Virus record (IMG/VR): IMGVR_UViG_3300023219_000109
Span: 1 to 20,356 of that record
Length of the DNA: 20,356 nucleotides
DNA from: a virus
Direction: 5' to 3' (one strand)
In this document: positions 17,631 through 19,554 of the stretch, one piece after another
How the letters are laid out: the number at the start of each line of letters is the position of its first letter
Numbering within the stretch: position 1 is the stretch's first letter
The notes under the pieces: model-generated
What the model was told of the DNA's origin: nothing
Databases searched by the model: none
What the model saw: the letters and a program-made list of their open reading frames with translations, nothing else
Program-made: the position numbers and the translations under genes

Positions 17631-17825
17631 TTAACTACTTGAACCACAAGCACCCTCGTACTTTACTGCTAGGTCTATGACTCGGGCTATGAATTCTGCA
17701 CAATTAATGTCACCGTCGAGCCAGTCCTGAAGTATCTCTGCATAGGGAATAATGATCCAATCAAAGTAGTCTAAGGAACAATTAAGATCCTCAGGTGGAA
17801 CTGGGGGTGGGCAGTCATGAGCCAT
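17631..17825 (-). CDS. Small acidic four-cysteine protein, 64 aa
   Basis: The 64-residue protein is not recognised. It is acidic, with four cysteines (C5, C16, C42, C60) and a Pro-rich start (HDCPPPVPPEDLNC, residues 3-16). A helical section DYFDWIIIPYAEILQDWLDG (19-38) follows, and the end is NCAEFIARVIDLAVKYEGAC. The spacing would allow a metal site or disulfides. It has no signal peptide. The ATG overlaps the previous gene by 11 bases and has GAGGA 8 bases upstream, so it is likely real. It sits between the lysis-like cluster and the structural block and could belong to either. No function is offered. Confidence 0.55.
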   Translation of the reverse strand: MAHDCPPPVPPEDLNCSLDYFDWIIIPYAEILQDWLDGDINCAEFIARVIDLAVKYEGACGSSS

Positions 17826-18174
17826 TTACGTTATCCTCAGAGAACGCTTCAATGATTAAGTCCAATGCTTCTTGTCTCTCCTCAGTTGCAGCTTCGGGAC
17901 GGGTTTTTAAACCCTCCAGAGCTTCTACCGTTTCCTTTTTACTCATAACTTCTACTACCTCTCGTAAAACCCCTCGATCTTCTAAAGTCCAACCCGTTTG
18001 GGTGGGTAAAAGATCTGTGGCTATGGAGCTTCCAGTAACTAGAATCAAACACGTGACGATCACCCATCCCTGTTTTCTGGAGCTGCGAGATACTTCTTGA
18101 GGGCTCGCGTAAGCAGGCGTTGGGTTTCCTGGTCCTCTTGGGTCCCTGTTTGGTTCTTGATCATCTCGTGCCAT
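17815..18174 (-). CDS. Single-pass membrane protein of the lysis-like cluster
   Basis: Read from the ATG at 18174 (119 residues), which has GGAG 5 bases upstream. A hydrophilic Pro/Arg-rich leader of about 37 residues precedes one membrane segment (WVIVTCLILVTGSSIATDLL, about 38-57). A charged helical tail follows, with GVLREVVEVMSKKETVEALE in it. An alternative GTG at 18063 overlaps the upstream stop (GTGA), as most junctions here do. It would make the hydrophobic stretch an N-terminal signal anchor and give 82 residues. The N-in, C-out layout with a helical outer domain resembles an inner-membrane spanin subunit, but the helix is short. The longer start implies a 115-base overlap with the holin-like gene, so the start is uncertain. 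Confidence 0.55.
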   Translation of the reverse strand: MARDDQEPNRDPRGPGNPTPAYASPQEVSRSSRKQGWVIVTCLILVTGSSIATDLLPTQTGWTLEDRGVLREVVEVMSKKETVEALEGLKTRPEAATEERQEALDLIIEAFSEDNVNGS

Positions 18175-18359
18175 CGTTTCTCCAATTCTCGTTTGTCCAT
18201 CCAATTCCAAAGTAAAACGCAGAACAGAATAACTCCTACTCCACCACTCTTTACTGCTTCGAGGATTGTAGCTGGCTCCGCTTCGACTATGCCGAGGACT
18301 GCAAAGCCAAGAAGTCCAGCTCCTGCGGCGACGAAGGTTGCAGGCTCAGGAGAGATCAC
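18060..18359 (-). CDS. Putative holin-like protein, two membrane segments
   Basis: The 99-residue protein has two hydrophobic segments: ATFVAAGAGLLGFAVLGIVE (about 7-26) and GGVGVILFCVLLWNWM (about 39-54). A charged helix with alternating Lys, Arg and Glu follows (DKRELEKRWHEMIKNQTGTQ, 55-74), ending in a basic LLTRALKKYLA. Small size, two segments and a charged cytosolic tail match class II-type holins or holin-like accessory proteins. The GTG start overlaps the stop of the lipoprotein-like gene (GTGA). With other membrane and lipoprotein genes adjacent, a lysis role is reasonable. Holins have no conserved motif, so this is architecture only. Confidence 0.62.
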   Translation of the reverse strand: MISPEPATFVAAGAGLLGFAVLGIVEAEPATILEAVKSGGVGVILFCVLLWNWMDKRELEKRWHEMIKNQTGTQEDQETQRLLTRALKKYLAAPENRDG

Positions 18360-18778
18360 TGGGAGTCCTCCGGGGGTTTCTTAGAGCCCTTCATGTAATG
18401 CATTCCACCAGCTCCACCTCCTACTCCCACTCCAGCCATGGTCATTGCGATCCACCACGGCATGTGCTGGCCATCCTCAAGGTTGTCTAGCTTTGCGAGT
18501 TGAACTCGATGGTTTTCTTCAACAAGCTCATGAAGTTTCGCAAGTTCGGTTTTCATCTCAATCTTGAATGCAATCATCTCAGTACTTAGCTCGGTGAATC
18601 TTGTGTCAGTTATGCGTTCCCTGAGCATTACATTGTCTGCACTCATGTCATCAAGTCTGGCGTCCCCTCGGTCAAGTCTCGTTATTACTGGGTCTGGCTG
18701 TCCAAGGGCTGGTCCAGCGACGCAGCCCTGAAGGACTCCAAGGGCCAGAACCGGGAGTGTTAGTCGTTCCTTGAGCAC
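18356..18778 (-). CDS. Candidate unimolecular spanin (lipoprotein with C-terminal membrane segment)
   Basis: The 140-residue protein starts with a short signal (MLKERLTLPVLALGVLQGC), in which LQGC could serve as a lipobox with C19 as the lipid anchor; Gln at -2 is uncommon. A long charged helical middle follows (VMLRERITDTRFTELSTEMI, about 50-69, then ELAKLHELVEENHRVQLAKL). Near the end is one hydrophobic segment (WWIAMTMAGVGVGGGAGGMH, about 107-126) with a basic tail KGSKK. Outer-membrane lipid at one end and inner-membrane segment at the other is the layout of unimolecular spanins such as phage T1 gp11 (134 residues), which fuse the two membranes in lysis. Known ones are often beta-rich between; this one is helical. 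The start is GTG with GGAGG 10 bases upstream. Confidence 0.6.
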   Translation of the reverse strand: MLKERLTLPVLALGVLQGCVAGPALGQPDPVITRLDRGDARLDDMSADNVMLRERITDTRFTELSTEMIAFKIEMKTELAKLHELVEENHRVQLAKLDNLEDGQHMPWWIAMTMAGVGVGGGAGGMHYMKGSKKPPEDSQ

Positions 18779-18779
18779 T

Positions 18780-18872
18780 TTAACGCTTCCTCCGCTTGGC
18801 CGTAGTTCGCCTGACCTTGGCTTTCTTTTTAATCACCTTGCGTTGCCTGGGTGTGTGACCGTGGAGTGCCAT
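18780..18872 (-). CDS. Tiny Lys/Arg-rich peptide, 30 aa
   Basis: A 30-codon frame that most gene callers would drop. It starts MALHGHTPRQRK and ends TTAKRRKR; 14 of 30 residues are Lys or Arg and there is no acidic residue. Three features support it. AAGGA lies 7 bases before the ATG. The ATG overlaps the stop of the lipoprotein gene (TGATG). The following gene's GTG lies one base after its TAA, with GGAGG inside its own end. It overlaps the end of the 75-residue gene in another frame. It could be a cationic outer-membrane-disrupting lysis peptide, a nucleic-acid condenser or merely a translated coupling leader. No homology is claimed. Confidence 0.5.
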   Translation of the reverse strand: MALHGHTPRQRKVIKKKAKVRRTTAKRRKR

Positions 18873-19056
18873 CACTTTGTCCTTGTTGGTTGAGTGCTCT
18901 CAGGAACTTCCAATCTACGCTGTCTCGGAGGGCCCTGATCTCTCCAAGCTCCTCGGGCGTTAGCTCGCGGTTGGCTTCCTGAGCCTCTTGCACGAGCTCG
19001 GTAAGCTCGTTGGCCGTCGTAAGTAGGAGTCGAATTGCTGCTAAGGCCTCTAGCAT
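18829..19056 (-). CDS. Small helical phage protein nested over the lipoprotein gene
   Basis: The 75-residue product is a helical hairpin-type protein: LEALAAIRLLLTTANELTEL (2-21), VQEAQEANRELTPEELGEIR (22-41), then a short helix and a Ser/Gln/Thr tail. The pattern 'L-x-x-A-x-x-L-x-x-L-V-x-x-A-x-x-x-x-R-x-x-T-x-E-E-L' resembles small proteins of unknown function encoded beside lipoprotein genes in phages (recalled, unsearched). The ATG has GGAG 8 bases upstream. It overlaps the last third of the lipoprotein gene by 185 bases in another frame. Its protein-like sequence suggests it is the main coding frame there, and the lipoprotein's Arg-rich tail may be the passenger. Confidence 0.6.
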   Translation of the reverse strand: MLEALAAIRLLLTTANELTELVQEAQEANRELTPEELGEIRALRDSVDWKFLRALNQQGQSDGTPRSHTQATQGD

Positions 19057-19363
19057 TTGGGGTCTCCAGCTTTATGTAAACTCTGAGCATTGCGTCCATC
19101 AGAGTTTGAAATTCAACCTCTGAGGAAAAGTCTTCCCCACGCGTAAGTGCCTCAGACCAAGAGTCCAAAAGAGTCCTAGCCTCAGATCTCACAACCTCGA
19201 ACTTTCGAAGATCCTCTGTGGAGACCTCACCCGCCAGGGCTAGAACTGTCACGGCACTCACAGTAGCCCGGTAAGATGAGTCCGCGAACTGGTATCGTTG
19301 AGCGGAGCTTAGATTGCAGCCGCTGAGGAGTGCCAAGACCACAACTAAAACGAGGGGTTTCAC
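18872..19363 (-). CDS. Putative outer-membrane lipoprotein
   Basis: The 163-residue protein opens with a textbook lipoprotein signal: MKPLVLVVVLALLSGCNLSS, with lipobox LSGC and C16 as the lipidated residue. Ser/Asn after the cysteine does not signal inner-membrane retention, so outer-membrane sorting is expected in a Gram-negative host. A helical domain follows (RYQFADSSYRATVSAVTVLA, 22-41, then RKFEVVRSEARTLLDSWSEA) to about residue 102. The last 60 residues are Arg/Ala/Pro-rich and overlap the 75-residue gene in another frame. The GTG start overlaps the previous stop (GTGA), and its own stop couples to the tiny basic peptide (TGATG). It could be an outer spanin-like subunit; it is much longer than a typical Rz1. 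Confidence 0.68.
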   Translation of the reverse strand: MKPLVLVVVLALLSGCNLSSAQRYQFADSSYRATVSAVTVLALAGEVSTEDLRKFEVVRSEARTLLDSWSEALTRGEDFSSEVEFQTLMDAMLRVYIKLETPNARGLSSNSTPTYDGQRAYRARARGSGSQPRANARGAWRDQGPPRQRRLEVPESTQPTRTK

Positions 19364-19554
19364 TTCTGGTCCTCCGAACTCATGTCTCCGTCTCGGGACT
19401 GCGTGAGTCCTAGTGCTATTGCGATGACTCCTCCAGCCTTGCCCCAGTCCTTGACTTCGGCCACCGGGATTTCAAACTCAGCGGCCAAAAACAAGGCTAC
19501 TCCCACGAGTCCTCCAAGGGTTGTTTTCCAATTGACCTTGAAATTCTTAACCAT
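19360..19554 (-). CDS. Small membrane protein, holin-like
   Basis: Read from the ATG at 19554 (64 residues), which has GGAG 9 bases upstream. The longer frame from a TTG lacks support. A basic start (MVKNFKVNWKTTLGGL) leads into a hydrophobic segment (TLGGLVGVALFLAAEFEIP, about 12-30). A weaker second segment follows (AGGVIAIALGLTQS, about 40-53), and the tail is acidic. The 'NWKTT-x-x-G' start followed by two short hydrophobic stretches is typical of small phage membrane proteins often placed in lysis modules. Its stop overlaps the lipoprotein start (GTGA). A holin or holin-accessory role is inferred from architecture and neighbours. Confidence 0.6.
   Translation of the reverse strand: MVKNFKVNWKTTLGGLVGVALFLAAEFEIPVAEVKDWGKAGGVIAIALGLTQSRDGDMSSEDQK

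Follow-up and report, generated by a model that had tools for sequence, protein, structure and literature searches.

Between two lipoprotein genes of a viral contig lies a 30-codon frame of strongly basic composition, and the question is whether it encodes a protein and, if it does, of which kind. An earlier note on this DNA had proposed an overlooked gene for a cationic peptide that disrupts the outer membrane during lysis, with nucleic-acid binding as the main alternative. The window spans an entire IMG/VR record (20,356 bases) with all evident genes on the minus strand and is apparently a fragment of a tailed-phage genome: it encodes the terminase large subunit (TerL; 13467-11884, minus strand), the portal (11882-10173, minus strand), a capsid protein common to the related loci L002-L004 (8954-7923, minus strand) and tail-type proteins. 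The frame, denoted pep30 (18780-18872, minus strand), belongs to a run of small genes upstream of these.

Sequence, junctions and neighbours of the frame

Read on the minus strand from 18872 to 18780, pep30 translates as MALHGHTPRQRKVIKKKAKVRRTTAKRRKR, and the minus-strand letters at the locus run ...CAACAAGGACAAAGTGATGGCACTCCACGG...CGGAGGAAGCGTTAAAGTGCTC. The ATG is at 18872 and the TAA at 18782-18780. Seven lysines and seven arginines are found among the 30 residues, with no aspartate or glutamate, and the 3.6-kDa product has a charge of +14, a pI of about 12 and a mean Eisenberg hydrophobicity of -0.74. Strongly hydrophobic residues (ILVMFWY) account for 17% of the peptide and aromatic residues are absent. 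The best 18-residue helical moment is 0.35, against a shuffle mean of 0.42, and is equalled or exceeded by 69% of the shuffles.

A Shine-Dalgarno-like site, AAGGA (18880-18884, minus strand), precedes the ATG with a spacer of 7 nt, the TGA of a 163-aa lipoprotein frame overlaps the ATG in a TGATG, and a single base (18779) separates the TAA from the GTG (18778) of a 140-aa gene, the Shine-Dalgarno-like site of which, GGAGGA (18788-18793, minus strand), is located within the 3' end of pep30. Thirty residues, 14 of them lysine or arginine and none acidic, AAGGA 7 nt before the start, TGATG and a GTG one base beyond the stop had all been listed in the earlier note, and all are exact to the base.

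The 163-aa lipoprotein frame (18872-19363, minus strand) begins with MKPLVLVVVLALLSGC and is preceded by a gene for a 64-aa membrane-type protein (19360-19554, minus strand). From about residue 104 to 163, it runs out of frame through ORF75 (18829-19056, minus strand), which encodes a small helical-type protein of 75 aa; pep30 is in the +1 frame relative to ORF75 and shares its last 44 nt. Downstream of pep30, the 140-aa gene (18356-18778, minus strand) is followed by the gene of a holin-like candidate, 99 aa long with two hydrophobic segments and a weak match to PHROG 2429 (E=0.05; 18060-18359, minus strand), and by that of a 119-aa single-TM protein (17815-18174, minus strand). The description of the locus as a lysis-type cluster holds for the lipoprotein and membrane genes, but matches to endolysin or holin families were lacking, and the window, a partial contig for which not every protein was compared with every library, showed no recognisable endolysin.

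The claimed coupling of pep30 to the lipoprotein gene is exact as regards TGATG, but the C-terminal third of the lipoprotein frame is doubtful. Over the overlap region, that is, the last 61 codons of this frame, the codon log-odds are +20 bits for ORF75 versus -2 for the lipoprotein frame, so that the best coding signal sits in ORF75 and the coupled TGA belongs to a frame with a questionable end. The chance that the lipoprotein frame stays open for about 60 codons through ORF75 (19056-18872), as it does, is 0.5% by simulation; the empirical estimate is about 2% (8 of 333 genes read from the start and 114 of 6,855 windows). This unlikely openness is weak evidence that the extension is real and, with it, a coupled gene chain, in which the 64-aa gene overlaps the lipoprotein gene by 4 nt, the latter overlaps pep30 by 1 nt, a gap of 1 nt leads to the 140-aa gene, and this gene overlaps the 99-aa gene by 4 nt. 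As an observation on the contig itself, the stretch 19056-18872 (minus strand) is either an overlapping-gene pair or contains a shifted frame.

The 140-aa protein has a u-spanin-like layout, with an LQGC lipobox after a hydrophobic signal, a coiled middle and a C-terminal stretch of 21 uncharged, weakly hydrophobic residues (106-126; MPWWIAMTMAGVGVGGGAGGM; KD 0.98); the lipobox cysteine is its sole cysteine, leaving no periplasmic one. A lipobox, a C-terminal transmembrane domain and the lack of a periplasmic cysteine are among the layout criteria for u-spanins (PMC6139136). The lipobox departs from the consensus [LVI][ASTVI][GAS]C at position -2; deviant lipoboxes such as LNGC are listed for spanins in the same work (PMC6139136). 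The protein resembles the u-spanin gp11 of T1 (PMC6139136) in its lipoprotein signal, its lack of a periplasmic cysteine and perhaps its C-terminal stretch and, like u-spanins of this type, is encoded by a small gene in a membrane and lipoprotein cluster, but it differs from u-spanins in the glycine-rich, weakly hydrophobic character of the C-terminal stretch and in the off-consensus position of the lipobox. No detectable relatives or family match were found for the 140-aa protein.

Rarity, coding signal and search for relatives

To assess how often such a frame arises by chance, we drew new synonymous codons for ORF75 according to the codon usage of the genome itself, so that its protein stayed the same, and dinucleotide-shuffled the 50-nt gap that follows it. 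Of the simulations, 1.7% contained a frame of 24-60 codons that had an ATG and a Shine-Dalgarno site and ended at the next start, and 0.06% contained one that in addition had at least 40% lysine and arginine and at most one acidic residue, corresponding to a window-wide expectation of about 1.6% across some 27 junctions; the charge thresholds were chosen after the peptide was known, so that these figures overstate the evidence. When the junctions of called genes were surveyed in the window and in 65 loci of related viruses, 820 in all, pep30 was the only uncalled junction frame to combine such a charge with an ATG and a Shine-Dalgarno site. The genome is tightly packed, with 24 of 27 junctions no longer than 15 nt; the 50-nt gap that would be left without pep30 is therefore an outlier.

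Other measures are neutral or point the other way. With codon log-odds of -2.6 bits over its 30 codons, pep30 is neutral in codon usage and gains no coding support, and the frame was not selected by a simple codon-plus-SD gene caller. Over ORF75, the frame was open in every synonymous resampling and the ATG arose in 51% of them, so that half of the feature follows from the residues of ORF75 itself. The antisense strand of 773 kb contains seven comparable frames that are rich in lysine and arginine and carry a Shine-Dalgarno site.

No homologue of pep30 was detected in Pfam, PHROGs or the PDB, and a tblastn search of 50,697 phage records at E<=10 yielded no match. Degenerate DNA for GHTPRQRK gave 33 matches in IMG/VR and GTDB, none of which was in a comparable short basic frame, and blastn of the 1.5-kb region found no match. 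Related loci were obtained with TerL, MCP and portal probes; in 67 of them TerL is 27-58% identical, and a few others were added. Only these three probes retrieved relatives from IMG/VR, none of which has the neighbourhood of pep30, whereas the u-spanin-like protein and ORF75 retrieved none, and a GTDB scan with the 604-aa tail-type protein also gave no match. When all proteins of the cluster were compared with the related loci by tblastn, nothing beyond noise was found for the lipoproteins, ORF75 or pep30.

The earlier note had suggested looking for the frame at the same place in related phage contigs. It was not found there, but the nearest relatives (about 55% identity in TerL and MCP) lack the entire neighbourhood of pep30 as well, and at such a distance its absence is neutral, neither supporting nor refuting the gene. 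In L032, a lipoprotein gene is followed by a 69-aa gene in a layout resembling that of the lipoprotein frame and ORF75, with no basic frame after it. This pair was considered as a syntenic counterpart and rejected, since BLASTP showed no similarity; it is an analogue at most.

Small basic proteins are a feature of the related loci, where they are concentrated next to the terminase. They accounted for 12 of 45 small calls up to 800 nt from TerL, as opposed to 2 of 139 elsewhere (Fisher p=8e-7), in a count based on a simple codon-plus-SD caller, with a few non-independent calls and with TerL-centred loci. These proteins, encoded in L011, L015, L018, L039, L048, L053, L064, L066 and L067, are of several unrelated kinds; for instance, they comprise 31 aa in L018, 52 aa in L011 and L039, 53 aa in L048 and 37 aa in L053, and those of L064 and L067 match PHROG 2423, a family of unknown function. 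The 52-aa basic gene of L011 starts 1 base after a membrane-protein gene. The L018 protein (1160-1255; MPSHTPITKLQKGAHVALKKKKPKKKAPKKS), encoded between an unknown gene and TerL, nearly equals pep30 in size and composition, with 31 residues, 11 of them lysine or arginine and none acidic. The basic proteins of the relatives (31-80 aa) share with pep30 their shortness, their richness in lysine and arginine, the few or no acidic residues and the packing among late genes, but there is no sequence similarity, and most of them lie no more than 800 nt from TerL, whereas pep30 is about 5.3 kb away, among lipoprotein and membrane genes.

Readings of the frame

An overlooked small gene at pep30 is plausible but unproven: the frame fits the tight packing and is unlikely by chance, in agreement with this part of the earlier proposal, but codon usage is neutral, no homologue was found, and translation is putative. 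Tentatively, our first choice among the readings is that pep30 encodes a coupled small nucleic-acid-binding protein; its translation, its binding and its role are all inferred, the binding from composition only. The start and stop geometry, the rarity among simulations and junctions, the filling of the 50-nt hole, the low hydrophobicity with high pI, and the presence of small basic proteins by TerL in the relatives all argue for it. Features expected of small basic nucleic-acid-binding phage proteins, namely a high content of lysine and arginine, the lack of a signal or TM segment and the scarcity of acidic residues, are found in pep30. Against it stand the codon log-odds, the gene caller that passed over the frame, the lack of a homologue in IMG/VR and GTDB, searched with the GHTPRQRK codon pattern, and in the phage records, Pfam, PHROGs and the PDB, the distance from TerL, and the analogous junction of L032 that has no basic frame. 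The alternative named in the earlier note fits better than lysis, although pep30 has no family match and is not adjacent to the terminase.

Under this nucleic-acid-binding reading, ribosomes that finish at the TGA of the lipoprotein frame, or are recruited by AAGGA, would start at the overlapping ATG, and pep30 would be a real, non-conserved mini-gene giving the 3.6-kDa, +14 peptide. Translation would end a single base short of the GTG that starts the 140-aa gene, and the ribosomes may re-initiate there. The peptide, in which about every second residue is basic and none is acidic, is hardly hydrophobic and has no signal sequence; it would remain cytoplasmic and act through electrostatic binding to DNA or RNA, which is also the likely mode of action of other small basic late proteins in these phages. 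If translated, pep30 would be another very short basic gene hidden in a packed phage late operon and skipped by gene callers.

The reading that ranks next, a serious possibility, is that of a chance frame, in which an open frame rich in lysine and arginine, yielding no product, results by accident from the C-terminal codons of ORF75 and the purine-rich, Shine-Dalgarno-bearing 50-nt spacer. Purine-rich spacers of this kind do read as lysine and arginine, and the neutral codon usage, the lack of a homologue, the openness of the frame in every resampling of ORF75, with an ATG in about half, and the seven antisense frames are all consistent with it. What speaks against chance is that geometry and charge coincided in so small a share of the simulations and at none of the other junctions, and that the spacing is precise on both sides, with TGATG at one end and 1 nt at the other.

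It is rather doubtful that pep30 serves as a translational bridge, being translated to carry ribosomes over the 50-nt gap and to tune the u-spanin-like gene while the peptide itself matters little. The stop 1 nt before the GTG, the predominance of overlapping or abutting junctions in the genome and the location of the Shine-Dalgarno site of the 140-aa gene inside pep30 would suit this role; however, 14 basic and no acidic residues would be superfluous in a bridge, the 140-aa gene comes with its own Shine-Dalgarno site, and RNA structure prediction around pep30 gave nothing notable (z=+1.2) that would have to be opened.

The lysis reading, in which a minimal polycation disrupts the outer membrane once holin and endolysin have acted, appears improbable. 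Its model is the disruptin gp28 of phage phiKT, reportedly described by Holt et al. 2022. Charge and the lipoprotein and membrane gene neighbours speak for a lysis peptide; the helical moment, the low content of hydrophobic residues and lack of aromatic ones, the u-spanin-like protein encoded next door, the position of similar basic proteins of the relatives by the terminase, and the lack of a recognised endolysin in the window speak against it. According to a paper that cites this work (PMC12819732), the archetypal disruptin is a short helix of amphipathic character and came to light through the question of how spanin-less phages breach the outer membrane. Like the archetype, pep30 is a short cationic phage peptide (+14 in 30 residues) near lysis-type genes, but it is not amphipathic, is hardly hydrophobic and has a u-spanin-like gene directly downstream, itself without a homologue and in a partial contig. 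Given a helical moment below the shuffle mean, pep30 does not show the amphipathic helix of a disruptin and is unlikely to work like one; the outer-membrane role proposed earlier is not borne out. Still less probable is that pep30 is a non-amphipathic polycation acting in outer-membrane lysis alongside a u-spanin, unlike the one known disruptin.

Equally far-fetched is the idea that the basic stretch forms the end of ORF75 or of the lipoprotein, reached by programmed frameshifting or separated by an assembly error: basic tails are common, pep30 is in the +1 frame of ORF75 directly after the AAG TGA of the lipoprotein frame, and the sequence is a single metagenomic contig, but no slippery heptamer was seen by eye, pep30 has its own Shine-Dalgarno site and ATG, and the stop of ORF75 is normal.

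A conserved frame at the TerS 3' end and a gap after the portal

The search for frames spanning junctions also brought up an unannotated, basic, proline-rich frame (13623-13468, minus strand; MAGTMNQQPTAPQPTPPKGNTAMLKKPPRATPSVPDPGKPTHRMGPGTPKN) that covers the 3' end of the gene for the terminase small subunit (TerS) out of frame and has a stop abutting the ATG of TerL. Counterparts of about 45-52 aa are present in L009 (2282-2428), L011 (7197-7334), L012 (643-786), L013 (3086-3244), L015 (1666-1815), L016 (680-832) and L018 (553-702), that is, in eight viruses including the window, and most of QQPTAPQPxPPK...MFxKRPSSxxGSDxGxPKH recurs in them. Each has an in-frame ATG preceded by an AAGGAG-like site (AAGGAA in L009 and GGGAG in L012). 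No match to a Pfam or PHROG family or to a phage record was found. In some of these viruses TerS contains the conserved block, but in L015 the whole block falls past the TerS stop; hence, TerS alone cannot explain it. Judged from this conservation, the frame is predicted to be an overlooked gene, one better supported than pep30, which has no such conservation yet. This conserved and previously unmodelled TerS-overlap gene is thus a firmer target than pep30.

Elsewhere in the window, a zinc-ribbon-type gene is represented in the 215-nt gap after the portal (10172-9958, minus strand) by its C-terminal part (WPKDGVFLEHASENGTHFKTRKDLRKWCKENQCSSAALL), with no recognisable N-terminal cysteine ribbon; in relatives, for example L003 (8722-9060), the gene is intact at this place.
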